Of a stretch of DNA of 64,000 nucleotides, positions 1 through 12,289 are shown piece by piece. This DNA is from Cyclobacteriaceae bacterium (lineage in GTDB: Bacteria; Bacteroidota; Bacteroidia; Cytophagales; Cyclobacteriaceae), in contig PXCO01000403.1 of NCBI GenBank assembly GCA_003565295.1, forward strand, positions 1-64,000. Reading direction: 5' to 3'. The number at the start of each line of letters is the position of its first letter. Positions within the stretch are counted from its first letter, which is position 1. A model generated the notes under the pieces. The model did no database searches and was not told where the DNA came from. It worked only from the letters and a program-made list of their open reading frames with translations. The translations under genes were made by a program, and so were the position numbers.

Positions 1-37
1 CATGTGTTTATAATTGATTTTTATTTGCCACAACTTG

Positions 38-156
38 TCCCGATCTTCGGGATAGCCTGCCCCTGCCTGCCCCGAACTTGTTTCGGGGGACTCGCTTCGG
101 GAGCCTGTCCCGAATTCACTTCGGGAGAATCTCGCAACGCCCCGTAGCTATCGGGG
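38..156. repeat. cluster of short GC-rich inverted repeats (CCCGAA..TTCGGG type)
   Basis: Within about 120 bases there are at least four small dyads with arms of the form CCCGA/TCGGG: 38-52 (TCCCGA, 3-base loop, TCGGGA), 70-88 (CCCCGAA/TTCGGGG), 108-126 (TCCCGAA/TTCGGGA) and 140-156 (CCCCG/CGGGG). The surrounding DNA is AT-rich, so the cluster stands out in composition. It lies just downstream of the minus-strand PHP gene and may help end its transcription, or be a dispersed intergenic repeat. No coding sequence is apparent in 1-197. Confidence 0.6.
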
Positions 157-197
157 CATCCCAGTGTGTGACGTGCTCGTCATCCTCGATTTCATCA

Positions 198-1295
198 TTA
201 TTTGAACTCCAAGGTAATGGGCATCCCTGTGCCAGGGGTAGTAAAGAAATTATCCACCACCAGGTTTAAGGAAATGGCGCTGACATCTCTATCACCCTCA
301 AGGTCAACTGAAAATATGCTTTCATGGCCAGGGTCTAATCTTAAATCCCTAAAAAACGCTAAATTCGGGTTTTTACCAGCTTTCTTTGTCAGGTGTAAGG
401 GTATATCAGAATTGTTCTTCACCTTTATGATAAAGGTTGTGCCTCTTCGTTCAACGCTTTTTATTTCCAGGCACTCCATGAATAAAGGTTCCAGCCACTC
501 TGCTTTACCTGCGACCTTACCTTGAAAAAAAGCTGCCGTCCTACCTGCAAAAAATGCCTCCTTTATGGCTTCTGCTGTTTTCTCTTTGGCGAAAATCAGG
601 GTTAAAGGACGGATTTGACCTCCCTTTACGTCATAATCCATACCTATAGGATTGTGTACATCGGTGTTCGACATAATAGTAAGTCCATGTTCCATGGCAA
701 ACTGATGTCCTTCATAATAATAATCCGGGCCATTCACGACTTCTATGCCGTGGAGCATATCGTTTTCGAGTAGCCATGTATGCTCTTCCCACCAAAGGGT
801 AGTATCCGGCTGTTGCCTTGCCCATCCCGGATGATCCCAGAAAATAAAGGCTCCTTGATCCCTGGCAGTTTTAAGCGCATCCTGCCAGGTCTCTACCTCA
901 AGTGCGTCTGAGTCTGTGAGAAACAAGGCATTTAAATGTCCTGGGGGCATGGACCTGGTTACTTCACTTGCCTTAATCAAAATGACCCCCAGATCTTTTG
1001 CCCGGGGTTCCGCTATTTCAAAAGACCGGTTGTGGCTCCCTGGTACATCAGCCTTATATGGTCTATACTCAATGTGATCAGTAATGGAGATAGCATCTAA
1101 GCCCTCCAACCAGGCCTCCTCTACGCGTGTGGTAGGCCAAACCTTACCGTCAGAAAAAACGGTATGCATGTGAAAATCACCCTTAAGCGTATGATATCCT
1201 GGAAGGTCTGGTAGTTGAATGACCCCCTTTTTTTGCGCGTAAGAAGTAGAATAAACAAGTATAGCGAGGAAAAAACAAATACTAATCTTTTTCAC
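198..1295 (-). CDS. secreted PHP-domain phosphodiesterase (Sb-PDE-like)
   Basis: A signal peptide (KKISICFF...TSYAQ) precedes a PHP (polymerase and histidinol phosphatase) fold. Metal-ligand motifs are visible: HMHTVFSDG near the N-terminus, then ITDHIEY, DHPGW and SNTDVHNP. This matches the family of periplasmic PHP phosphodiesterases typified by Sphingobium Sb-PDE, which hydrolyse phosphodiesters with a metal cluster. The C-terminal ~100 residues look like a beta-rich accessory domain. The frame is open back to a TTG at 1316, but a GTG at 1295 gives a textbook signal peptide start, so I prefer it. It is divergent from the PhoD-like gene at 1377 with only ~80 bp between starts, suggesting shared control. 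The natural substrate is unknown. Confidence 0.75.
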   Translation of the reverse strand: MKKISICFFLAILVYSTSYAQKKGVIQLPDLPGYHTLKGDFHMHTVFSDGKVWPTTRVEEAWLEGLDAISITDHIEYRPYKADVPGSHNRSFEIAEPRAKDLGVILIKASEVTRSMPPGHLNALFLTDSDALEVETWQDALKTARDQGAFIFWDHPGWARQQPDTTLWWEEHTWLLENDMLHGIEVVNGPDYYYEGHQFAMEHGLTIMSNTDVHNPIGMDYDVKGGQIRPLTLIFAKEKTAEAIKEAFFAGRTAAFFQGKVAGKAEWLEPLFMECLEIKSVERRGTTFIIKVKNNSDIPLHLTKKAGKNPNLAFFRDLRLDPGHESIFSVDLEGDRDVSAISLNLVVDNFFTTPGTGMPITLEFK

Positions 1296-1376
1296 TGGAG
1301 TTTGGGTTAAGTTCAATTATGGCCTTAATTTGCTAAGATTAAATTAAATTACCCAATATCCACAGGTTAACCTACT

Positions 1377-2900
1377 ATGAACTATTCTTTTCCCGTTTCC
1401 ATTTCCTTGATTTATCTTGCATTACTTTCCATTAGTTGCAACAACCCTGAAAATAGGGGTAAAGGACCCTACCTACATTATTTAATGGCGGGGGAGCCTA
1501 TGCAGGAAAGCATTATTTTTCAAGCCAGACTGGCAGAAAAGGATACGATTATCTACGAAGATGTACATGACCCGGCACTCTTTATGTCCACAGACCTAAA
1601 AGGCAAATCAGGGAAAATACAATTCGAATATGGCACCGACCCCGAATTAAAGGATGTAAGGAAGTCCCCATGGATCTCAGTTTCAGCAGAGGATGACTAT
1701 ATAGGCAAATTTATGCCAAGGAACCTAAAATCCGGCACCGTCTATCATTACCGTGTCCTATATGGAACCGATGAAAATAACTATAGCCCTAGCCCCATTC
1801 AACGTTTCCGTACCTTACCTTCAAAGGATGCAGAAGAGGAGGTCTCTTTTGTGATGGTCACCGGTTCTCACCTTGCCCGGTTTTACCTGGGAGGAGGGTT
1901 TGGAAAAGCCTCTTCACAAGGCACAGAAGCTTACCGGGGAGAGGACAAGTATGAGGGGTTCCACGGGTTTGAGAGCATATTAGCCAAGCAACCCGACTTT
2001 TTTATCGGTAATGGGGATAATGTATATTATGACCATCCGGATGATTTCCAGGTAGAGACCCTGGAGGAAATGAGGGCCATGTGGCATAGGCAGTTTTTTA
2101 TGCCCCGGATCCGAAAGATGTTTGCAGAAATCCCCATATACTGGATGAAGGATGACCATGACCACCGTTTTGACGATTCGGACACCACGGCAGTACACCC
2201 CCGATTTGGGGCTAACCCTTCCAATGAATTAGGGATAAAAACCTTTATTGAGCAAGTACCTGTCACAGATCCTGAGGAAGAAAACCCTCTTACTTACAGG
2301 ACAATAAGGGTTAATCAACACCTACAAATCTGGATGGTGGAAGGAAGGGACTACCGAAGTCCTAATGAGTGGCCGGATGGACCGGACAAAACCATTTGGG
2401 GGGAAAAACAAAAAGCATGGTTAAAGAAAACCCTAAAGGATAGCGATGCCACCTATAAAATCCTAGTCACCCCTACCCCTATGGTAGGCCCGGACGGAGC
2501 AGGGAAAAAAGACAATCACACCAACCCGGATGGTTTCCTCACTGAAGGTAACGAATTTTTCAATTGGTTATCCTCCAATGATTTTGACAGAGAATCCTTT
2601 TTCATCATTACCGGTGACAGGCATTGGCAATATCATTCCATTCATCCCACTGGCTTTCAGGAATTCAGTTGTGGGGCGATGGTGGATCAGAACTCCCGCT
2701 TAGGCGTGGATCCGGGCACCAAAAACTCCAATGATCCTGAGGGACTTATCGTACAGCCATACACAAGTACAGAACCCTCAGGTGGTTTTTTAAGGGTAAA
2801 AGTAGTCCCCCAGCAAAATGTTCCCAAAATAAGCTTCGACTTCTTCGAAGAATATGGAGAAGAGCTTTATTCGTATGGATTGGGGGGAATGGAAAATTGA
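1377..2900 (+). CDS. PhoD-like alkaline phosphatase/phosphodiesterase lipoprotein
   Basis: The N-terminus has a lipoprotein signal (LLSISC, Cys21). An Fn3-like N-terminal domain (roughly residues 60-150) precedes a metallophosphatase domain. Metal-binding signatures are GNGDNVYYD (near residue 212), KDDHDHRFDD (near 258) and GDRHWQYHS (near 412), typical of the PhoD superfamily. The expected role is hydrolysis of phosphate mono- or diesters at the cell surface or in the periplasm. At 507 residues it has normal length for the family. It diverges from a PHP-type phosphodiesterase, so the pair may process an organophosphate together. No Pho-box was identified. Confidence 0.82.
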   Translation: MNYSFPVSISLIYLALLSISCNNPENRGKGPYLHYLMAGEPMQESIIFQARLAEKDTIIYEDVHDPALFMSTDLKGKSGKIQFEYGTDPELKDVRKSPWISVSAEDDYIGKFMPRNLKSGTVYHYRVLYGTDENNYSPSPIQRFRTLPSKDAEEEVSFVMVTGSHLARFYLGGGFGKASSQGTEAYRGEDKYEGFHGFESILAKQPDFFIGNGDNVYYDHPDDFQVETLEEMRAMWHRQFFMPRIRKMFAEIPIYWMKDDHDHRFDDSDTTAVHPRFGANPSNELGIKTFIEQVPVTDPEEENPLTYRTIRVNQHLQIWMVEGRDYRSPNEWPDGPDKTIWGEKQKAWLKKTLKDSDATYKILVTPTPMVGPDGAGKKDNHTNPDGFLTEGNEFFNWLSSNDFDRESFFIITGDRHWQYHSIHPTGFQEFSCGAMVDQNSRLGVDPGTKNSNDPEGLIVQPYTSTEPSGGFLRVKVVPQQNVPKISFDFFEEYGEELYSYGLGGMEN

Positions 2901-2930
2901 ATATGGAGAATTGAAAATTGAAAATGGAAA
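2890..2930. repeat. short A-rich repeat (ATTGAAAAT units)
   Basis: Immediately downstream of the PhoD-like gene are degenerate repeats of GGAAAATTGAA / AATTGAAAATTGAAAATGG. Such A-rich repeats are common between Bacteroidota genes. The rest of 2901-3068 shows no gene. Confidence 0.45.
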
Positions 2931-3068
2931 GAATTTGGATGACGGATAATGGAAGACTGAAGCATGAATGATGAGTGATGGGAGGGATCAAAAAAAGATC
3001 TATCCAATTCTGTTTTTGAGCAATTCGTGAGCCCTAATTAATCCTTTCGTCATTCGTAATTATATTAT

Positions 3069-4064
3069 TCAGAAAGTATGGGCAAGGTTTTGTTCTTGGT
3101 CTAACTGATGATTAATGGCCCTGAGCAGGGAAGATTCCCCTTTTGCATCATCCAAAAGGGACCAAAGCATCACTCCAGCCGCTCCCACTCTTTTGGAATA
3201 ATTCACCTTTTCCATCAGGGTCTTTGGTCCATTGAAATAAAGAACTCCACCCTCAGGCAAAGTGATTTTATCCTGGTCCAGCGCATCCGGGAACTGTTCC
3301 AGGATTTCACTATAGCCCCAGTCCGGTTTGGCCCAAGGGCCAAAAGCCCTGCCAAAAAGCGGCATACCTATGAGGAGTTTGTGGGCAGGAATGTTCCGCT
3401 TCTTATGAAAATACTCATAATCCTCTTTGGCCATTTCGACGGGGGCATGCTGACCGAAACCCAGAGGGTTCCATGGCCCTGTCTTATCAAATGACATGAT
3501 ATAGATACAATCCAAAAGAGACAGGGTTTTATCGGAAATTTTATTGGAACTCCAGGCACTTAGAGCGGCTGTAATTCTTAGGTCATGGGGTTGGAATTTT
3601 TTGTGAGCCGCTTTCAGAAACTGATTGAAGTCCTCATTTACCAAGTCATGGCTCAAGGTGAAATCTATACCATCAAAGCCATATTGCAGCGTATAGGTCA
3701 GCAACTGTTCAATGAATGCTTCTCGGTTGTCTTTATGCATTAACCTTCCCAAATGTCCGGGTGCATGATTTCCACCAATGGAAAAATAGGTTCGTATACC
3801 CTTTTCCTGAAGCCGCTCCACCAGGTTGCCCAATTCCTCCCTTTGGGGCAAATTTCCTCGAGGGTCGGGATTGATGAAAGCCAGGTTAAGGTCGGTAAGC
3901 CCTTCCAAATCCATGGTGTCAGTATCAATAAGGCGGTCATGGGGCACCATCACATAGCCTACTACCATAAAATCTTCCTTTTGCTCCTGTACGGTGGTTT
4001 TGGGGCTAACTATTTGGCACCCCACTAATATAAACCAAACCAAATTAAACGTTCCTCTTCCCAT
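3069..4064 (-). CDS. GH18 (chitinase-like) lipoprotein lacking the catalytic motif
   Basis: A lipoprotein signal (FILVGC, Cys16) precedes a TIM-barrel of the glycoside hydrolase 18 family. The SxGG strand motif (SIGG, residues 95-98) and the barrel sequences IYIMSFD, GMPLFGRAFG and GVMLWSLLDD are typical. The GH18 signature DxxDxDxE reads D131-G-I-D134-F-T136-L-S138 here: both the third Asp and the catalytic Glu are gone. Family knowledge says a GH18 without this Glu cannot hydrolyse chitin by substrate-assisted catalysis, so a glycan-binding role is more likely. It lies 41 bp downstream of a sodium:solute symporter on the same strand and is probably co-transcribed. Confidence 0.75.
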   Translation of the reverse strand: MGRGTFNLVWFILVGCQIVSPKTTVQEQKEDFMVVGYVMVPHDRLIDTDTMDLEGLTDLNLAFINPDPRGNLPQREELGNLVERLQEKGIRTYFSIGGNHAPGHLGRLMHKDNREAFIEQLLTYTLQYGFDGIDFTLSHDLVNEDFNQFLKAAHKKFQPHDLRITAALSAWSSNKISDKTLSLLDCIYIMSFDKTGPWNPLGFGQHAPVEMAKEDYEYFHKKRNIPAHKLLIGMPLFGRAFGPWAKPDWGYSEILEQFPDALDQDKITLPEGGVLYFNGPKTLMEKVNYSKRVGAAGVMLWSLLDDAKGESSLLRAINHQLDQEQNLAHTF

Positions 4065-4105
4065 CTCTTCAACCGTTCAACTTCCTAAAAATTGAAAAAT
4101 ACAGC

Positions 4106-5953
4106 TTAAAGATAATTCAATTTTTTCCAAATTTTAAATAAAATCAGTGTTAAAATAATAAAAAACACAGATAAAAATATGGCTAAAACATAAAAACCAA
4201 AAATATAGTATCCAATTGCAAAAAGCCCGCTATAAACCGCTGAAGCTCCGACCGCCATTCCCACTATCCCTAAGGGCCATTCCGATTTTTGTGCATCTAA
4301 GGGAATAGCTCTTCCCTTAGATGCACAATATTGGATGACCTTTTCCCATCCTATTTTCCCAGGCCGTACCTTTCGGTAAAACCTTTCCAAGTCCTCAAAA
4401 TTATCGCTGGGGGTTAGCCAGGTAACTAGCAACCAAGATAGAGTTGTAACCCCCACGCCTATCAACAGTTGCTCATGGGTTTTGAGAATCCAAAGCTGTT
4501 CATTGGCTATTTCCAGCTCCATTCCTGATGCCAGAAAAGCCTCAAGCCTTAGCCCTTGATAATGCTCTATTCCCAAAAACACCAAAGCCATAGCAAAAGA
4601 AACCACCATGGCCGTAAGTTCACTGTAAGGGTTGATCCTGTACCAAAACCACCGGAGCAAAAACAATAGCCCGGTCCCAGCCCCAATCTGCATCAAGATA
4701 TGGAAAGCAGAAAGGGCATTTTGCAACACCAAAGCCAAAAGGGATGAGAAAATCATCAACAATAAGGTAACCAGCCTTGCTACTGTCACCAGCCTTTTTT
4801 CACTGGCCTCAGGATGTATAAACCTTTGGTAAAAGTCATGCACCATATAAGAAGAACCCAGGTTCAGGCAGGTGGAAATGGTGGACATATAGGCGGCAAC
4901 CATGGAAGCAAAGACCAAGCCCAGCACACCGGAAGGAAGAAAGGTAAGCATGGCAGAATAGGCCAGGTCATGACCTATCATCTTTCCATCTAGATGGGGA
5001 AATGCCTTTTCTAATGCCTCTAAGTCCGGGAACACCACCAATGAACACAAGGCCACAATGATCCACGGCCATGGCCTCAAGGCGTAGTGGGCCACATTGA
5101 ACAGCAAGGTGGCCCCCATGGAGTGTTGTTCGTCCTTGGCCGCCAACATACGCTGGGCAATATATCCTCCACCACCGGGTTCCGCACCTGAATACCAAAC
5201 TGCCCACCATTGTACGGTGAGTGGGATGATGAATACCACCACCGCCACCTCCCAATTGTTGAAATCAGGTAAAATGGAAAGTTTATCGGCTACGGAGGGA
5301 TGACCAAATAGCTGGGACAGCCCCCCGATCTGTGGATGATGAACAGCATAGTAGGCCGCTAGTATAGACCCTGCCATCGCTGCAAAAAAGAGGATAAAAT
5401 CCGTCAGAACGACTCCCAAAAACCCACCAAGAGAGCTGAAAAGAACGGTTATTCCTCCTGCGATAAAGATGACTTGCCATGGACTAAGCCCTAGCATTAC
5501 CCCCCCGATTTTAATCGCCGCCAAATTAACCGCGGCCATAATGGCCACATTAAATACCATGCCGAGATAAACCGCCCTAAAGCCACGCAAAAATGCCGCT
5601 GCCTTACCGCTATATCTCAATTCGTAAAATTCTATATCGGTGATCACCTCAGACCTCCTCCACAACTTGGCATATACAAACACGGTAAGCATCCCCGTAA
5701 GTAAAAAGGACCACCAAACCCAGTTCCCGGCAATTCCCCCTTGTCGTACGATGTCCGCCACCAAATTGGGGGTATCCACAGAAAAAGTGGTGGCCACCAT
5801 AGAAACTCCCAACAGGTACCAGGGCATATTTCTCCCTGATAGAAAAAAGGAAAGGGCGCTCTTGGAAGCATGCCGGGAGGCCCAGGCACCTATGCCAAGG
5901 GAAAGGATGAAAAAAACCAGTACTATGCCCCAATCCAATGCAGATAGTGTCAT
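4106..5953 (-). CDS. sodium:solute symporter (SSS family)
   Basis: A 615-residue protein with about 13 hydrophobic helices and the SSS fold order. The start (LDWGIVLVFFILSLGIGAW) and the SGRNMPWYLLG and ATTFSVDTPN segments are typical of this family, which imports sugars, amino acids or other organic solutes with Na+. A soluble C-terminal extension is followed by a final helix pair. The start ATG is clear. The next gene on the same strand, 41 bp on, is the inactive GH18-like lipoprotein, which hints that the substrate is a sugar or amino sugar. The exact substrate cannot be read from the sequence. Confidence 0.88.
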   Translation of the reverse strand: MTLSALDWGIVLVFFILSLGIGAWASRHASKSALSFFLSGRNMPWYLLGVSMVATTFSVDTPNLVADIVRQGGIAGNWVWWSFLLTGMLTVFVYAKLWRRSEVITDIEFYELRYSGKAAAFLRGFRAVYLGMVFNVAIMAAVNLAAIKIGGVMLGLSPWQVIFIAGGITVLFSSLGGFLGVVLTDFILFFAAMAGSILAAYYAVHHPQIGGLSQLFGHPSVADKLSILPDFNNWEVAVVVFIIPLTVQWWAVWYSGAEPGGGGYIAQRMLAAKDEQHSMGATLLFNVAHYALRPWPWIIVALCSLVVFPDLEALEKAFPHLDGKMIGHDLAYSAMLTFLPSGVLGLVFASMVAAYMSTISTCLNLGSSYMVHDFYQRFIHPEASEKRLVTVARLVTLLLMIFSSLLALVLQNALSAFHILMQIGAGTGLLFLLRWFWYRINPYSELTAMVVSFAMALVFLGIEHYQGLRLEAFLASGMELEIANEQLWILKTHEQLLIGVGVTTLSWLLVTWLTPSDNFEDLERFYRKVRPGKIGWEKVIQYCASKGRAIPLDAQKSEWPLGIVGMAVGASAVYSGLFAIGYYIFGFYVLAIFLSVFFIILTLILFKIWKKLNYL

Positions 5954-6236
5954 CGAAAATTCTGAAATCTTAATAGGTGCTCAAATTCTTCCCCCATGAG
6001 GGAAAAGCCAACTACAGCTGGAGTATTGCATGGTAATAAACCCATATTTGAACCGATTTCCTAATCCAAGCAATAGAAAACCACTTAGATAAATGTAGAA
6101 ACAGTTACCCATACTGGTAAGGTAACAGTTTTCATGAAGCTTTGGCTAGCTGGCCACTTTAGGGTTATTCCAGAACCTGGAAGGTCTTTCACGGAGGCTG
6201 TATATCGATCCGACAGGCCCAGGTTGGGAGCGAAAA

Positions 6237-6275
6237 AAAACCCTCCAGAGGTCTAGTAAAAGACCTCAAAGGTTT
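6237..6275. repeat. hairpin repeat copy 1 (GAGGTCT..AGACCTC)
   Basis: Perfect 7-bp stem GAGGTCT (6248-6254) / AGACCTC (6261-6267) with a 6-base loop. The flanks AAAACCC (left) and AAAGGTTT (right) extend the dyad imperfectly. A second copy lies at 6361-6399. Confidence 0.6.
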
Positions 6276-6360
6276 CGTGCACTGGACCTTTGGGGTTTTC
6301 CCAAACCCCGTATACTAAGGGAAAGCTCATCAATTAGAGACGCCCAATTTGCGTACGTTG

Positions 6361-6399
6361 AAAACCTTCCGAGGTCCAAAAAAAGACCTCAAGGGTTTT
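6361..6399. repeat. hairpin repeat copy 2 (GAGGTC..GACCTC)
   Basis: Stem GAGGTC (6371-6376) / GACCTC (6385-6390) with an A-rich loop. The flanking AAAACCTT and AAGGGTTTT extend the dyad. It matches the copy at 6237-6275 in stem, loop composition and flanks, in the same orientation. Confidence 0.6.
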
Positions 6400-6451
6400 G
6401 ATTGCCATTAAAACCAAACGGCTGGGTAAATTAAAGTCTTAATATGTTTTT

Positions 6452-6477
6452 TTCGTAATTCTACGAAATTTTCGTAG
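6452..6477. promoter_or_regulatory. putative BlaI-type operator with three phased half-sites
   Basis: CTACGAAA-T-TTTCGTAG (6461-6477) is a perfect 8-bp-arm palindrome. Another TTCGTA half-site at 6452-6457 forms a second dyad with it. The three half-sites therefore alternate at 9-10 base steps, on one face of the helix. The element ends about 30 bases before the repressor's ATG, where autoregulation by the BlaI-like protein is expected. A TACATTTG motif (6498-6505) resembling a Bacteroidota -7 element lies between, though it is very close to the start codon. Confidence 0.6.
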
Positions 6478-6508
6478 GAAGTTAGAAAAATTTAGTTTAC
6501 ATTTGGGT

Positions 6509-6883
6509 ATGGAAAGATTGACAACTACAGAAGAACAGATAATGGAGATTATGTGGAGGACGCAAAAAGCACTCATACGGGAGGTTTTAGAAAATCTGCC
6601 GAACCCTAAGCCCCCCTATACAACCCTTGCCTCGCATATTAGGCAGCTAGAGAAAAAAGGGTACCTCGATCATCATGCATTTGGGAACACGTACCAATAC
6701 TTCCCCATAGTGAGCCAGGAAGCCTATCGACAAAACAGCACAAGACGTTTAATCAATCAACATTTTGAAGGCTCCGCAAAAAATTTCCTGTCCTTTTTAG
6801 TAAAGGAGGAGAAAATGTCCGATGAGGATTTGAACGAATTAAAAACCCTGATCAATGAAGCATCAAAAAACCAGAAATCATGA
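6509..6883 (+). CDS. BlaI/MecI/CopY family transcriptional repressor
   Basis: A small winged-helix repressor of 124 residues. It begins MERLTTTEEQIMEIMW, the usual opening of Bacteroidota BlaI-like proteins, followed by the LPNPKPPYTTLASHIRQLEKKGYLDH recognition region. The frame is open to a TTG two codons upstream, but ATG 6509 fits the family start. In BlaI/MecI systems a dimer represses its own operon until it is cleaved after signalling by an M56 membrane protease. The next gene encodes such a protease and overlaps by 4 bases (ATGA), so the two form one operon. The palindrome upstream is the likely binding site. Confidence 0.9.
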   Translation: MERLTTTEEQIMEIMWRTQKALIREVLENLPNPKPPYTTLASHIRQLEKKGYLDHHAFGNTYQYFPIVSQEAYRQNSTRRLINQHFEGSAKNFLSFLVKEEKMSDEDLNELKTLINEASKNQKS

Positions 6884-8133
6884 CAGCAATCATCCAATTT
6901 CTACTTGAAGCCAGTGTGTCTTTATGTCTTCTGTACGGTCTCTATGCTTGTTTTTTTGCCAAAACCACTCAATTTTACTGGAATAGGATTTTCCTTATGG
7001 CAATACCTATCCTATCCTGTCTGATCCCTTTACTAAGCTTACCATCTCTCTGGCACAGCTCCAACTCTTCCCTCTCCAGTGTTCAAATGGTTGTAAACTT
7101 GGAAGAGGTTGTTTTTTTTCAACATGAAGTCACCTCTTCCTTACCCAAGTTGGATATTATCCTTTTATTAATGATACTCTATTCAGGCGGGGTGGCTTTT
7201 GGTCTGGCTCGGTTCCTGAGCAGCCTATTTCACTTGTATGGAATGATTCGTAAAATTGAGGCACATCACATTGGAGGCAGCAAGGTATTCATACATCCCC
7301 ATTTTAAGGCTTCCTCCTTCCTGAACTTTATATTCATGCCAAGCTATTCAACTAACCATCGGCCCTCGGGTCTTATACTGGCACATGAGCAAAGCCATGT
7401 GAAAAAACTACATAGCTTGGATTTACTTTTTATAGAGTTCTTCGGTGTTTTTTTCTGGTTTCACCCCCTTCTTAGTCAATTAAAGGACAGCGTAAAAGAA
7501 ACCCATGAATTTCAAGTTGACCGGGAAATGCTACAAAAAAGTGACATAAGGGAGTATGGGCATTTGCTCATAGAACCTGATAACATTCCAACTGGTGCAG
7601 CCTACATACATTACTTTAATCAATTACAAACCAAAAAAAGAATCATCATGATGACAAAATCCCCATCCCCCGTTTGGACCAGGTTCAGGTATGCACTAGT
7701 GCTCCCCTGTATTGCCCTTTTAGTGTTTATTTTCTCCTGTGAAAAGGAGGAAGATTTGACCCTAACAAAGTCTGAGGAGGTGCTGGCCCTATCCAGTTCG
7801 CCCTCCAAGGTAGAAGTATTTGACGTAGTGGAGGAAATGCCCACACCCGTAGGTGGCATGGAAGGCTGGAACCAATATTTGAAGGAAAACCTGGCATTCC
7901 CTTCCTCAGCTAAGGAAGAAGGCATTGAAGGCACCGTATATGCGGAGTTTATTGTGGACGAGTCCGGTAAAATCCGAGATGTTAGTTTACTAAGGGGAAT
8001 TGACGGGCGCTTAGATGCCGAGGCATTAAATGTGCTGAAAAATTCCCCCGATTGGATTCCCGGAAAGCAGGATGGCAAAGTTGTAAATGTGAAACTGCGG
8101 ATTCCCATAAGATTTAAAAGTTACCCTTCATAA
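6880..8133 (+). CDS. M56 (BlaR1-like) metallopeptidase with C-terminal TonB domain
   Basis: The N-terminal part has several membrane helices and the zinc protease motif AHEQSHVKKLHSLDLL (HExxH form HEQSH, near residue 168), as in BlaR1/MecR1 sensors. A further helix near residue 275 ends in IFSC. The last ~90 residues are a TonB C-terminal domain (PVGGMEGWNQYLKENLAFP ... GTVYAEFIVDESGKI). BlaR1 itself has a penicillin-binding sensor there, so this protein senses something else or uses the TonB-like domain to contact outer-membrane partners. It overlaps the repressor gene by 4 bases. A proteolytic-signalling role is inferred. Confidence 0.85.
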   Translation: MTAIIQFLLEASVSLCLLYGLYACFFAKTTQFYWNRIFLMAIPILSCLIPLLSLPSLWHSSNSSLSSVQMVVNLEEVVFFQHEVTSSLPKLDIILLLMILYSGGVAFGLARFLSSLFHLYGMIRKIEAHHIGGSKVFIHPHFKASSFLNFIFMPSYSTNHRPSGLILAHEQSHVKKLHSLDLLFIEFFGVFFWFHPLLSQLKDSVKETHEFQVDREMLQKSDIREYGHLLIEPDNIPTGAAYIHYFNQLQTKKRIIMMTKSPSPVWTRFRYALVLPCIALLVFIFSCEKEEDLTLTKSEEVLALSSSPSKVEVFDVVEEMPTPVGGMEGWNQYLKENLAFPSSAKEEGIEGTVYAEFIVDESGKIRDVSLLRGIDGRLDAEALNVLKNSPDWIPGKQDGKVVNVKLRIPIRFKSYPS

Positions 8134-8190
8134 AATTTAGATGTTAATTACAGAAAGATCACTAAGGCCATGGGTATCCCTCGGCCTTTT

Positions 8191-8865
8191 TTATAGTTTC
8201 ACCGTGCCGGCCACATGCTTTTCCCAGAGGAAAATCAATTCACTGAGCATCATAGCGGTGGCTCCCCATACCACCTCCCCCTGTATATCAAAATAGGGTG
8301 CTTGGATGACTTGGCCATTTGCAAGCTCTATTTCTTTTTTCTTTCTAACGGCCTTATTCACCAATCTTTTAAAATCGCATATGATCAAACGATCGACCTC
8401 TCTGGGATCCGGGGCAAATTCCGGCGTATAACTCACATAACCAAGATAGGGGTAAACGGTAAAATTAGAAGGGGGGATATAAAGCTTGGATAGTCCCCCT
8501 AAAACCAGAATATCATCAGCGTTTACCCCCAGTTCTTCCCCTGTTTCCCTAAGTGCGGTCGCCTGCAAATCAGCATCACCATTTTCAAATTTGCCCCCTG
8601 GCAGACTTATCTGGCCGCTATGTACCCCCTCATAAATTGGTCTTTTGATAAATGGCAACAGGCAATTGTCTCCATCCGGATAAAGCAAAAACAACACTGC
8701 CCCTTTTCTCGTACTGATTTGTTCTTTGATCGCAAACCTTTCCTCTTCCAATGGAAGCGGTGCCATTGGCAATTGTCCCTCCATTCCAGGAAGGCTGATA
8801 CGGAACATATCCTCCAAATGTGCCAATATCTTTTTGAATTCCTCCTGCTTTCTGGGTACCTTCAT
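8191..8865 (-). CDS. Nudix hydrolase, CoA pyrophosphatase type
   Basis: Contains a Nudix box (GGKFENGDADLQ.. followed by RETGEELG) preceded by HSGQISLPGG. The latter matches the UPF0035 motif that marks CoA pyrophosphatases (NudL/PCD1 group), which cleave CoA to phosphopantetheine and 3',5'-ADP. At 224 residues it has normal length. The ATG start at 8865 is clear. It stands alone, convergent with the M56 gene and divergent from aceK. Confidence 0.85.
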   Translation of the reverse strand: MKVPRKQEEFKKILAHLEDMFRISLPGMEGQLPMAPLPLEEERFAIKEQISTRKGAVLFLLYPDGDNCLLPFIKRPIYEGVHSGQISLPGGKFENGDADLQATALRETGEELGVNADDILVLGGLSKLYIPPSNFTVYPYLGYVSYTPEFAPDPREVDRLIICDFKRLVNKAVRKKKEIELANGQVIQAPYFDIQGEVVWGATAMMLSELIFLWEKHVAGTVKL

Positions 8866-8960
8866 TCATCCACCTATTCAATCGGTTCTGTTCCCGGGTA
8901 TGTAAAAACTATAGCTCACTACCCTATACTATACCACTATAAAGGATAAAAAGTTCTTTT

Positions 8961-8997
8961 AAAAAAAAAAAGGTCTGAACAATGCTCAAACCTTTTT
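8961..8997. terminator. terminator-like hairpin with A- and T-tracts
   Basis: AGGT.TGA / TCA.ACCT imperfect stem (8971-8993), flanked by at least ten A's on the left and five T's on the right, the form of a bidirectional terminator. Its position is odd: it lies between the divergent starts of the Nudix gene and aceK, so no known gene ends there. A promoter-like pair (TTG 9054-9056, 18 bases, CATTTTTG 9075-9082) lies downstream of it, so it probably insulates aceK rather than attenuating it. The rest of 8866-9172 shows no gene. Confidence 0.5.
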
Positions 8998-9172
8998 CAC
9001 TTATCAAACCTATTAAACCTATTGGGCTTATTCATAAAAATGAATAAACTTGGTTGAAATTTACGTAATAATTCCATTTTTGCAAAAACACTTTTATGCG
9101 ATTTGTTTTCTTGAAGTATATGCGGTAACCCAAACCGTAATAAAATGGTGTGAAAACTACAATAGAAACAAC

Positions 9173-10909
9173 ATGAATAACTCAGTTAATTCATTGATAA
9201 ATAATACCATAAGCGACATATATAAGGGGTTTTTAGCCTATATGAGCGCCTTTGAAAAATTAACCAAATTAGTTCCAAGAAATTTTAGCGAACGCAACTG
9301 GGATCAATTACAGGCCCTACACCGAAAACGGCTAAGGCTTTACAAGGATAAACTCGGGGTTACCATTGAAAAGTGCAGAACCCACCTTGGAAATCAGGCC
9401 TTCAGTAGAAAAATGTGGAGGGAGATAAAAAATGCGTTTTCGGAGCATATTTGTGATCAACCCGATCAGGAGTTGGCGGAATCGTATTACAATGCCGTTA
9501 TCCGAAAAACCTTTCCAGGCTTGGCAGTGGACGAAGAATTGATGTTCGTGTATCAGGCCTATAAAAGTTGTCATATCGAGCCATCAACAAGTCTTTTTAA
9601 TAATTACCCCCCAGGACTAGGCTTGAGAAAAATCTTTGAGCAAATCATGTTAGATTTTGACTTTGGTGCTCCCTTTTATGATAAGGAAGGAGATATAGAT
9701 TATCTGGTAAACGGGGTCAAGGAGATCATTCTCAGCAGGTATTCCACTACAAGGAACACTACAACACAGGTGTTAAAAAGTGTGTTTTACCGCAATAAAG
9801 CAGCATATTTGATTGGCCGCACCTATATTGGCAATAAATGGATGCCTTTCATCATACCGTTCGTCCACAATGAGAAAGGGGTATTTGCAGACACCCTTAT
9901 TTTTGATCCCAACATCATGAGTGGGATTTTCAGCTACACCAGGTCCTATTTTATGGCCGACATCAAAATTCCGGCTCAGGTGGTTTCCTTTCTTAATTCG
10001 GTGATCAAACACAAAAGACCTTATGAACTCTACAATGCCATAGGATTCAATAAGCATGGGAAAACAGAATTCTACAGGGATTTTTTGGAGCATCTTTCCC
10101 AAACCCATGACCAGTTTGTATTGGCACCCGGAATCAAGGGAATGGTGATGACCGTGTTCACGCTCCCCTCCTTTAACATTGTGTTCAAACTGATAAAGGA
10201 CCATTTTGATCCCCCAAAAAACATGACCCGGCAGCAAGTGAGAGAGAAATATAAGCTGGTTTCCCTACATGACCGGGTGGGAAGGATGGCGGATACACAC
10301 GAATTCGAATACTTTCATCTGCCCTTGGACAGGATTCACCCGGATTTGATGCAGGAACTCAAAAACACGGTAAACTCTTTGTTGGAGATCAAGGGAAATT
10401 ATTTAGTGATCAAACATTTATATATAGAACGTAGATTGACCCCACTTAACCTCTATTTAGAAGAGTGCAGCCTTGAGGAAGCCAAACAGATTGTAGAGGA
10501 TTATGGGGATGCCATCCTTCAATTGGCAAAGGCCAATATTTTCCCGGGAGATATGATGACAAAAAATTTTGGTGTAACCCGGCAAAAAAGGGTGATCTTT
10601 TATGATTATGATGAAATTGAGTTTTTGGTGGACATGAATTTCAGGGAAAAACCCAGGCCAAGCAGTTTTGAAGAAATTTATGCCGCTGAACCCTGGTACG
10701 ATATTGGCCCACAAGATGTGTTTCCAGAAGATTTTAAACGGTTTATGATAGGAAGACAGGATGTCAAGCAACACTTTTTTGAAGTCCACCGATCCCTATT
10801 TGACCCCTGCCATTGGAACGATATCAAACAAAAAATCCAAAAGGGGGAATTACTTCATGCATTTCCTTACCCAATGTCCATGAGGTTCAGGCCGGAAGAG
10901 GAAATCTGA
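9173..10909 (+). CDS. aceK: isocitrate dehydrogenase kinase/phosphatase
   Basis: AceK phosphorylates and dephosphorylates isocitrate dehydrogenase, setting the split of isocitrate between the TCA cycle and the glyoxylate shunt. The hallmark stretch FKLIKDHFDPPKNMTR...VREKYKLV is followed by HDRVGRMADT, very close to E. coli AceK. DYDEIEFL near residue 490 and PGDMMTKNFGV near 460 belong to the kinase-like active site. The frame is open 41 codons further upstream, but starting at ATG 9173 gives 578 residues, the same as the E. coli enzyme, and the expected N-terminus. Unlike in enteric bacteria it is not next to aceA/aceB, and no isocitrate dehydrogenase gene is in the window. Confidence 0.93.
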   Translation: MNNSVNSLINNTISDIYKGFLAYMSAFEKLTKLVPRNFSERNWDQLQALHRKRLRLYKDKLGVTIEKCRTHLGNQAFSRKMWREIKNAFSEHICDQPDQELAESYYNAVIRKTFPGLAVDEELMFVYQAYKSCHIEPSTSLFNNYPPGLGLRKIFEQIMLDFDFGAPFYDKEGDIDYLVNGVKEIILSRYSTTRNTTTQVLKSVFYRNKAAYLIGRTYIGNKWMPFIIPFVHNEKGVFADTLIFDPNIMSGIFSYTRSYFMADIKIPAQVVSFLNSVIKHKRPYELYNAIGFNKHGKTEFYRDFLEHLSQTHDQFVLAPGIKGMVMTVFTLPSFNIVFKLIKDHFDPPKNMTRQQVREKYKLVSLHDRVGRMADTHEFEYFHLPLDRIHPDLMQELKNTVNSLLEIKGNYLVIKHLYIERRLTPLNLYLEECSLEEAKQIVEDYGDAILQLAKANIFPGDMMTKNFGVTRQKRVIFYDYDEIEFLVDMNFREKPRPSSFEEIYAAEPWYDIGPQDVFPEDFKRFMIGRQDVKQHFFEVHRSLFDPCHWNDIKQKIQKGELLHAFPYPMSMRFRPEEEI

Positions 10910-10911
10910 TC

Positions 10912-11424
10912 TTAATCCTCATACCATCCTGCATACATAGGATAGTTACCTGCAATCCTTATGATCTCCGCGGTCATTTTGTCATCTGTCGTTTTCACCC
11001 TTTTAGCCGGCACCCCGGCATAGAGGCTGTTTTCTTCAATAACAGTGCCTGCCAATACCACTGCGCCTGCAGCTATTACCGAACCGCTGTGCACTACGGC
11101 CCCATCCATCACAATGGCACTCATTCCGATTAACACATTATCATAAATGGTACATCCGTGAACTATGGCACCATGTGCAATAGAAACATTGCTTCCAATA
11201 TAGGTAGCGGCTTTTTTGTAGGTGCAGTGTATAATTGCCCCATCTTGGACATTTGTTTTATCCCCTATACGGATTTCATGAACATCCCCCCGGATCACCG
11301 CATTGAACCAAACCGTGCAATCCTCTCCCAATTGGACATCGCCTGTTAGTGTGGCATTTTCTGCCAACCAGCATCCCCTGCCCCATTCCGGCATTTTTCC
11401 GTTTACTTTTTTTATCAAGGCCAT
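10912..11424 (-). CDS. gamma-carbonic anhydrase family protein (PaaY/YrdA-like)
   Basis: A left-handed beta-helix hexapeptide-repeat protein of 170 residues. The family pattern is intact: NAVIRGDVHEIRIGDKTNVQDGAIIH, then SIAHGAIVHGC, with His residues in the zinc-ligand positions, and GVPAKRVK at the end. Such trimers bind Zn or Fe and are carbonic anhydrase homologues, often of uncertain activity. The gene is convergent with aceK, with only two bases between stop codons. Confidence 0.88.
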   Translation of the reverse strand: MALIKKVNGKMPEWGRGCWLAENATLTGDVQLGEDCTVWFNAVIRGDVHEIRIGDKTNVQDGAIIHCTYKKAATYIGSNVSIAHGAIVHGCTIYDNVLIGMSAIVMDGAVVHSGSVIAAGAVVLAGTVIEENSLYAGVPAKRVKTTDDKMTAEIIRIAGNYPMYAGWYED

Positions 11425-11569
11425 AATCCCGAGGATAAAATTAAATTAATCGTTAATAAATTCCTTATTTTTATCAGCTTTTTTTAGGGTTAACATGAAC
11501 TTTTTGGCACGGCTTTAGTTTGCATGTATATTCATATAAAAACTGAACCTTAACAAAACACTATCGCAC

Positions 11570-12289
11570 ATGAAATTAATTAAATTTTCAGGATTGATGA
11601 TCGCCAGTTCACTGCTGATGTTTAGCTGTGGAGGCGGTGGAGACACTGTGGAAACTTCAGAGGCTGAAGAAGTAAAGGCCGGATCTGGTCAAACCCTGAC
11701 CATAGCGTCCGAATCCAGTAAGGTAAACTGGAGAGGCTACAAACCAAAAGGTCAGCACCATGGCATTATCCCTGTTACCGACGGTCAGTTGATGGTGGAA
11801 GGCAATTCCATTACCGGCGGCAGCTTTTCATTTGACATCACAAAGCTAGAGATACACGACCTCGAAGAAGGTTCTGAAAACCATGGTAAGCTTTTTGGAC
11901 ATTTGCAATCCGATGATTTCTTTGATGCTGCTAACCATCCTGAGGCAAGGTTTGAAATCACGGGAATTGAGCCGTTCAGCGCTGATGAAATTGAAGACAA
12001 GGATGAATACGAGACGGAAAACACCCCTAAAAGTTCTTCCGAACTTGCACCAAGTAGCCCCACCCATTGGGTAAAAGGCAATTTGACGATGAGGGGAACC
12101 ACCAAGAACATCAAATTCCCTGCACATGTGTCTATCAATGACTCTGTGGTGGAAGCCAAAGCAGGATTCAATATCGATAGAACGGAATGGGGATTGTCTT
12201 ACAATGATGAAGGAAATGTGATCGACAGGGCCAAGGACCAATTCATCTACAATTCCGTAAGTGTGGAATTTGACATCAAAGCAAACTAA
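11570..12289 (+). CDS. YceI-like lipoprotein
   Basis: A lipoprotein signal (LLMFSC) with glycines and acidic residues after the Cys leads into a YceI domain (SKVNWRGYKPKGQHHGII ... GGSFSFDITKLEI ... GNLTMRGTTKNIKFPA). YceI proteins are lipocalin-like beta-barrels that bind isoprenoid or other hydrophobic ligands. An insertion rich in Glu/Asp and Ser (about residues 140-165) is visible. A strong terminator follows directly, so it is monocistronic. Confidence 0.88.
   Translation: MKLIKFSGLMIASSLLMFSCGGGGDTVETSEAEEVKAGSGQTLTIASESSKVNWRGYKPKGQHHGIIPVTDGQLMVEGNSITGGSFSFDITKLEIHDLEEGSENHGKLFGHLQSDDFFDAANHPEARFEITGIEPFSADEIEDKDEYETENTPKSSSELAPSSPTHWVKGNLTMRGTTKNIKFPAHVSINDSVVEAKAGFNIDRTEWGLSYNDEGNVIDRAKDQFIYNSVSVEFDIKAN

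Follow-up and report, generated by a model that had tools for sequence, protein, structure and literature searches.

GH18 proteins without a catalytic acid and lipoproteins of Bacteroidota

Among animal chitinase-like lectins, YKL-39, YKL-40 and BRP-39 share a GH18 barrel without the catalytic acid. In Bacteroidota, glycan capture for import is associated with SusD-type and surface glycan-binding lipoproteins, and SusD-type proteins have a fold of their own and are partnered with the outer-membrane protein SusC. The endo-chitinase of the chitin utilization locus of Flavobacterium johnsoniae, ChiB (FjChiB; 6xyz), is an active enzyme with Asp146, Asp148 and Glu150 as its motif, together with Tyr205. 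As described in PMC7426924, Tyr205 and Glu150 of ChiB hold a formate in the place expected for the N-acetyl group, and an insertion between beta-7 and alpha-7 builds one face of the cleft.

Here, a stretch of 64,000 nucleotides of a Cyclobacteriaceae contig (PXCO01000403.1, assembly GCA_003565295.1; the window) was analysed, in which the gene of a lipoprotein-like GH18 protein lies directly behind a sodium symporter gene. The window genome is compared throughout with that of its genus-mate Pleomorphovibrio marinus SW125. The features of the GH18 gene are as follows.

3069 to 4064, minus strand: coding sequence of a GH18-fold, lipoprotein-like protein, catalytically incomplete (ATG start, 331 amino acids; Pfam and fold matches)
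4017 to 4064, minus strand: signal peptide with lipobox LVG|C16, predicted from the sequence
3651 to 3674, minus strand: degenerate motif DGIDFTLS, residues 131-138, with T136 and S138 replacing Asp and Glu (sequence and alignments)
3489 to 3491, minus strand: F192, replacing the invariant Tyr of M-x-Y-D that corresponds to ChiB Tyr205 (phmmer alignment and alignment A1)
3318 to 3335, minus strand: W244 to W249, between beta-7 and alpha-7 (wider alignment)

A Pfam profile search showed that residues 50-306 match PF00704 Glyco_hydro_18 (95.8 bits, where the cut-off is 29.6; E 5.1e-27), and a (beta/alpha)8 barrel was predicted, with a mean pLDDT of 88.1 for the AlphaFold2 model; the model of the intact GH18 protein of genome G034 reached 91.7. 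A fold search with the model returned ChiB as the nearest solved fold (Z 34.1, rmsd 2.6, 31% identity over 289 residues), and ChiB was also the best sequence match among solved structures (phmmer E 4.5e-38), in agreement with the initial annotation of this reading frame as GH18. The same fold search listed human YKL-39 (4ay1, Z 29.1), which its PDB title describes as a pseudo-chitinase that retains chitooligosaccharide binding. The animal lectins are, however, secreted proteins in which catalysis was lost separately, and binding by the bacterial protein is a proposal. The comparison with SusD-type lipoproteins is likewise limited to the proposed capture of a glycan, and no SusC-sized open reading frame was found near the GH18 gene in positions 1-12000 of the window. 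Literature searches on the protein and the genus found no paper on this GH18 protein.

At the N-terminus, residues L-V-G-C16 form what we take to be a lipobox. Cys16 is followed by QIVSPKT in both Pleomorphovibrio species, and acidic residues are absent from this segment. In PMC5080379, lipoprotein export signals of Bacteroidetes are described as rich in Asp and Glu and as following a polar or basic residue. Because QIVSPKT has none of the Asp or Glu typical of these published signals, the protein probably faces the periplasm rather than lying on the surface, where it had been placed at first, under a rule not established for this family. Only from the periplasm could it serve an inner-membrane symporter directly.

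Catalytic motif and substrate cleft

The codons at 3674-3651 read GAT GGT ATA GAT TTC ACC TTG AGC and encode D131-G-I-D134-F-T136-L-S138. Measured against DxxDxDxE, the first two Asp (D131 and D134) are retained, the third Asp is T136 and the catalytic Glu is S138. The protein of P. marinus, 77% identical, has DGLDFSLG at this site. A genus search found the gene in both Pleomorphovibrio genomes searched, in each case without the third Asp and the Glu; the residues that replace them are non-acidic, and they are not conserved, because the two species differ at both positions. The absence of the two acids, as first read from the window, was confirmed in a second species. On the suggested check of whether the Thr and Ser replacements are fixed in a clade, the loss of acidity was common to both genomes (2/2) but the residues themselves were not, being Ser and Gly in P. 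marinus. A sequencing error or frameshift behind the motif was ruled out, since the second species is also non-acidic there and both frames are open. Both DGIDFTLS and DGLDFSLG lack the catalytic Glu of the DxxDxDxE motif that marks active GH18 enzymes. A GH18 fold without this Glu is one mark of a chitinase-like lectin, which the Pleomorphovibrio protein shares; the other would be binding of chitooligosaccharide or another glycan.

Outside the genus, the two residues were found wherever the motif could be read. Two alignments were used: A1, with the Pleomorphovibrio pair and 28 other rows, and a wider one with the pair and 49 other rows. In the latter, positions 136 and 138 are Asp and Glu in 48 of the 49 other rows, the remaining row starting short and being gapped there; judging from coordinates, the gapped row of both alignments is L065. 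A family search matched 23 of 390 genomes at E <= 1e-40, and all 21 outside Pleomorphovibrio retain the third Asp and the Glu. The order search (33/390 genomes at E <= 1e-25) and the phylum search (6/395 at E <= 1e-50) gave both residues in all matches with a locus whose motif was read, a set that leaves out L065, cut before the motif by the choice of start codon, and 14 weaker order matches without a locus. Three weak matches (L018, L027 and L029, at most 55.5 bits) showed no motif under the search pattern used.

No compensating acid was gained on beta-4 in either Pleomorphovibrio protein relative to the 49 other rows of the wider alignment. The acids gained in both proteins are E285 and D305, the latter in the loop after beta-8. 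Another acidic residue at the catalytic position had been named at the outset as the observation that would speak against lost catalysis; none appeared on beta-4, but D305 might fill this role.

The changes extend beyond the motif. The N-acetyl-contacting Tyr of M-x-Y-D, a second mark of active GH18 enzymes, is Phe192 here as against Tyr in 28/28 other rows of A1. Asn188 and Phe236 are equally invariant in those 28 rows. Both Pleomorphovibrio proteins have Tyr at 188, Phe at 192 and Leu at 236, and also Arg at 239, where 25/28 other rows have Tyr. Trp244 and Trp249 are present in both Pleomorphovibrio proteins and in none of the 49 other rows of the wider alignment, one of which has Tyr at 249. 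Asp131, Asp134, Asp193, Trp198 and Trp301 are retained (A1), and SxGG is preserved as SIGG at S95-G98, followed by N99 where most relatives in A1 have Gly. Residues 163-210, comprising beta-5, beta-6 and the loop of beta-6, are identical at 47 of 48 sites between the two species. The initial annotation was thus correct as to SxGG, and its preserved substrate-cleft strands were borne out in the near-identity of 163-210 but not at the positions where both species carry N188Y, Y192F, F236L and Y239R. Its 'intact cleft' is too strong, as the two residues that hold the formate in ChiB (PMC7426924), Tyr205 and Glu150, are Phe192 and Ser138 here.

Compared with Asp146, Asp148, Glu150 and Tyr205 of ChiB, as given in PMC7426924, the window protein has Asp134, Thr136, Ser138 and Phe192. 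Because Thr136, Ser138 and Phe192 stand opposite Asp148, Glu150 and Tyr205, the N-acetyl site is altered, and the known GH18 hydrolysis mechanism is not to be expected in the Pleomorphovibrio protein. That the protein is non-catalytic, as had been proposed, is near certain; the loss is common to both sampled genomes of the genus, in a protein still under selection (see below). The chitooligosaccharide ligand proposed at first is a guess, since both formate-holding residues of ChiB are replaced, and with the Tyr and the Glu that contact the N-acetyl group both gone, the site may have become unsuited to ligands of the chitin type.

Linkage with a sodium symporter

The GH18 gene is the second of a pair with the following features.

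4106 to 5953, minus strand: sodium:solute symporter (SSF, PF00474), 615 amino acids, first gene of the pair (Pfam 103.8 bits, cut-off 22.8)
4065 to 4105, no strand: gap of 41 bp between the symporter stop and the GH18 start, of the same length in P. marinus (L031:7957-7997)

The symporter is about 80% identical in P. marinus, and the solved structures closest to it are those of sodium/glucose cotransporters and of a sodium:solute symporter. The order from symporter to GH18, the common strand and the 41-bp gap were found in both species although the outer flanks differ: a PhoD gene lies near the pair in the window, whereas in P. marinus its orthologue is some 167 kb away from the pair. These results bear out the adjacency noted in the initial annotation and firmly establish the genetic linkage of the GH18 gene to the symporter. 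A sigma-70 scan of 2850-6520 gave fewer sites than in shuffles, and a Bacteroidetes-type promoter pattern matched in P. marinus only and not in the window.

An ancestral GH18-symporter pair was rejected, as no symporter was found beside GH18 at 24 other loci (about 1.5 kb on each side) or adjoining GH18 in wider contexts. A distant SSF-like reading frame (L070:5182-7020) is separated from an intact GH18 gene by about 2.1 kb; it is on the opposite strand, and another reading frame lies between. Conversely, the symporter orthologues of G019 and G034 (69% identity) are not beside GH18 but beside ThuA- or isochorismatase-type and DUF1501/DUF1553 genes; in G034, this symporter is present as well as an intact GH18, each on a contig of its own.

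Symporter paralogues (about 60% identity, 591-596 amino acids) adjoin a gene for an APH-fold kinase in 7/7 loci (L106-L112). L106 has in addition a nucleotidyltransferase gene (sugar-nucleotidyltransferase-like) and, about 5 kb further on, a GH20 hexosaminidase gene. By analogy, this neighbourhood hints at sugars such as N-acetylhexosamines as symporter cargo, and an N-acetylhexosamine is our first guess, and only that, for the GH18 ligand. NCBIfam gave no match above cut-off for the symporter or for the two APH-fold kinases scanned beside its paralogues. MurT, the MurNAc transporter of Tannerella, might be an SSF protein, although the passages of PMC7670621 consulted do not state SSF membership.

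Several further elements were observed around the pair. Upstream of the symporter, the window has two hairpin repeats (6238-6275 and 6361-6398; GAGGTC...AAAAAA...GACCTC), and in P. marinus such hairpins recur about every 126 bp in an array (L031:5349-6010) beside a reading frame resembling a REP-associated tyrosine transposase (L031:4791-5348). The core pattern was counted 16 times in the window genome, four times in P. marinus and not at all in two other family genomes or in the reversed control; as judged from these counts, the repeats are a genus-specific REP-like element. Positions 6503-8133 of the window encode a BlaI-type repressor and, after it, a BlaR1-type M56 protein with a TonB C-terminal domain at its end. 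A CehA/McbA-like PHP metallohydrolase, its tail an Ig-like DUF5001 domain, is encoded at 198-1316 (minus strand), the CehA/McbA match being below the curated cut-off. In P. marinus, a heparinase II/III-type gene (L031:9252-11297) is directly downstream of GH18, and the window genome has a weak partial match to it.

Selection, history and probable function

Between the two species, the GH18 gene shows a dN of 0.146 with saturated dS; 63/91 fourfold sites and 30/330 second codon positions differ, and the codon differences comprise 140 silent and 75 residue-changing ones. These values indicate that the gene is under strong purifying selection, and they contradict a pseudogene. In the tree, a stem of 1.57 changes per site leads to the Pleomorphovibrio pair, whose tips measure 0.089 and 0.22. 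The pair is nested in a clade with 100/99 support, the other members of which are intact enzymes of the same family and of other Bacteroidota. Intact family orthologues of this clade (L066/G034, L119/G460 and the g69 genomes) are 38-42% identical to the GH18 protein, but they keep DGVDVDLEN and MSYD, have nitrilase neighbours and have no adjoining symporter.

Identity in two segments, delimited with the alignment already in view, was compared with that in 65 intact pairs. For 163-210 it is at the top of their range (68.8-97.9%, mean 84). For the catalytic strand 130-145, 9/16 sites are identical (p 0.02 within the pair), as against 56-100% (mean 81) in the intact pairs, some of which are of lower overall identity and equally low here; relaxation of the motif only is therefore no more than suggestive. 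An earlier comparison in which 130-145 appeared uniquely variable (56% versus 94-100% in nine control pairs, all of one genus and seven involving row L041) was weakened by the 65 pairs. The symporter gene has also evolved faster, at 80.5% identity between the two species, than its paralogue elsewhere in both genomes (93.4%).

In five relatives (L066, L148, L149, L150 and L151), a carbon-nitrogen hydrolase gene follows the intact GH18, with one small gene between them in L066 and L150, and a NUDIX gene comes next in 4/5. Both Pleomorphovibrio genomes still have NUDIX, nitrilase and small gene together with no GH18 beside them, and tblastn at this nitrilase site found no GH18 remnant in either. 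Each has just one other GH18 protein, with an intact motif, DGLDIDWE. The simplest history would be that GH18 was relocated behind the symporter, or that the old copy was lost after copying, and that catalysis was lost; the order of these steps is our reconstruction.

With the chemistry gone, the protein maintained and its gene tied to the symporter, a ligand-binding lipoprotein for the symporter is the best explanation. A GH18 barrel descended from an FjChiB-like enzyme has lost the Asp and Glu for substrate-assisted hydrolysis, as read from the sequence. It would be made together with the upstream symporter, given the conserved 41-bp gap, and would be lipid-anchored and face the periplasm, as its lipobox and the missing export signal suggest; its remodelled cleft would bind a small glycan or a solute resembling a sugar, which the symporter would then import. 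We hold with middling confidence that this is a pseudo-chitinase that binds such a solute for the symporter or otherwise assists it, and the claim of binding in the symporter's service is about evenly poised. The loss of both the Tyr and the Glu that contact the N-acetyl group weighs against it, as does the sample of two genomes for the genus, and sodium symporters of this family are not known to need a binding protein. The fuller version, in which the symporter gained a dedicated periplasmic binding lipoprotein as GH18 left the nitrilase, moved behind the symporter, was disarmed and acquired a new aromatic-lined cleft, is tentative and rather doubtful; if true, a sodium symporter would here be assisted by a binding protein, with a TIM barrel as its receptor.

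The conserved linkage and the loss of the N-acetyl-contacting residues would equally suit a barrel that no longer binds sugar and attaches as a chaperone, scaffold or sensor to an envelope protein, be it the symporter or a different one, stabilising or gating it, and the near-identical 163-210 could then be a protein interface. The Trp residues gained in beta-7/alpha-7 fit ligand binding better, which is favoured over docking because the insertion that forms a cleft face of ChiB (PMC7426924) is at this very site; docking is thus considered fairly unlikely. With a sample of two genomes, and with the 69% symporter orthologues of G019 and G034 lacking a GH18 neighbour, the pairing might instead be an accident, GH18 having arrived there in an ancestor that both species share while serving something unrelated. 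However, both genes and the 41-bp gap stayed together while the outer flanks came to differ, and an accident is unlikely. The retention of D131, D134, D193 and W301 and the gain of D305 in both species leave some room for an enzyme with an altered mechanism or reaction, acting for example via D134, D193 or D305, but the acid, its partner Asp and the Tyr are lost, no acid was gained on beta-4 and the two species differ at both catalytic positions, making this very unlikely. A functionless, decaying gene, to which the long stem branch might point, is the least credible, given open frames in both species and saturated synonymous sites against 30/330 changed second codon positions.

The best-known pseudo-chitinases are animal proteins. 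The initial finding is real, and the protein described here, judged from sequence comparisons, is a bacterial pseudo-chitinase with a remodelled cleft, linked to a sodium symporter and genus-specific on the present sampling of two genomes. For this bacterial example, intact relatives can be compared, the gene neighbourhoods before and after the move can be traced, and the partner gene is defined, so that the step from an enzyme to a presumed binding protein is open to study and testing in a marine genus that can be cultivated. Should its connection with the symporter be functional, it would represent a new way to give a secondary transporter a receptor.
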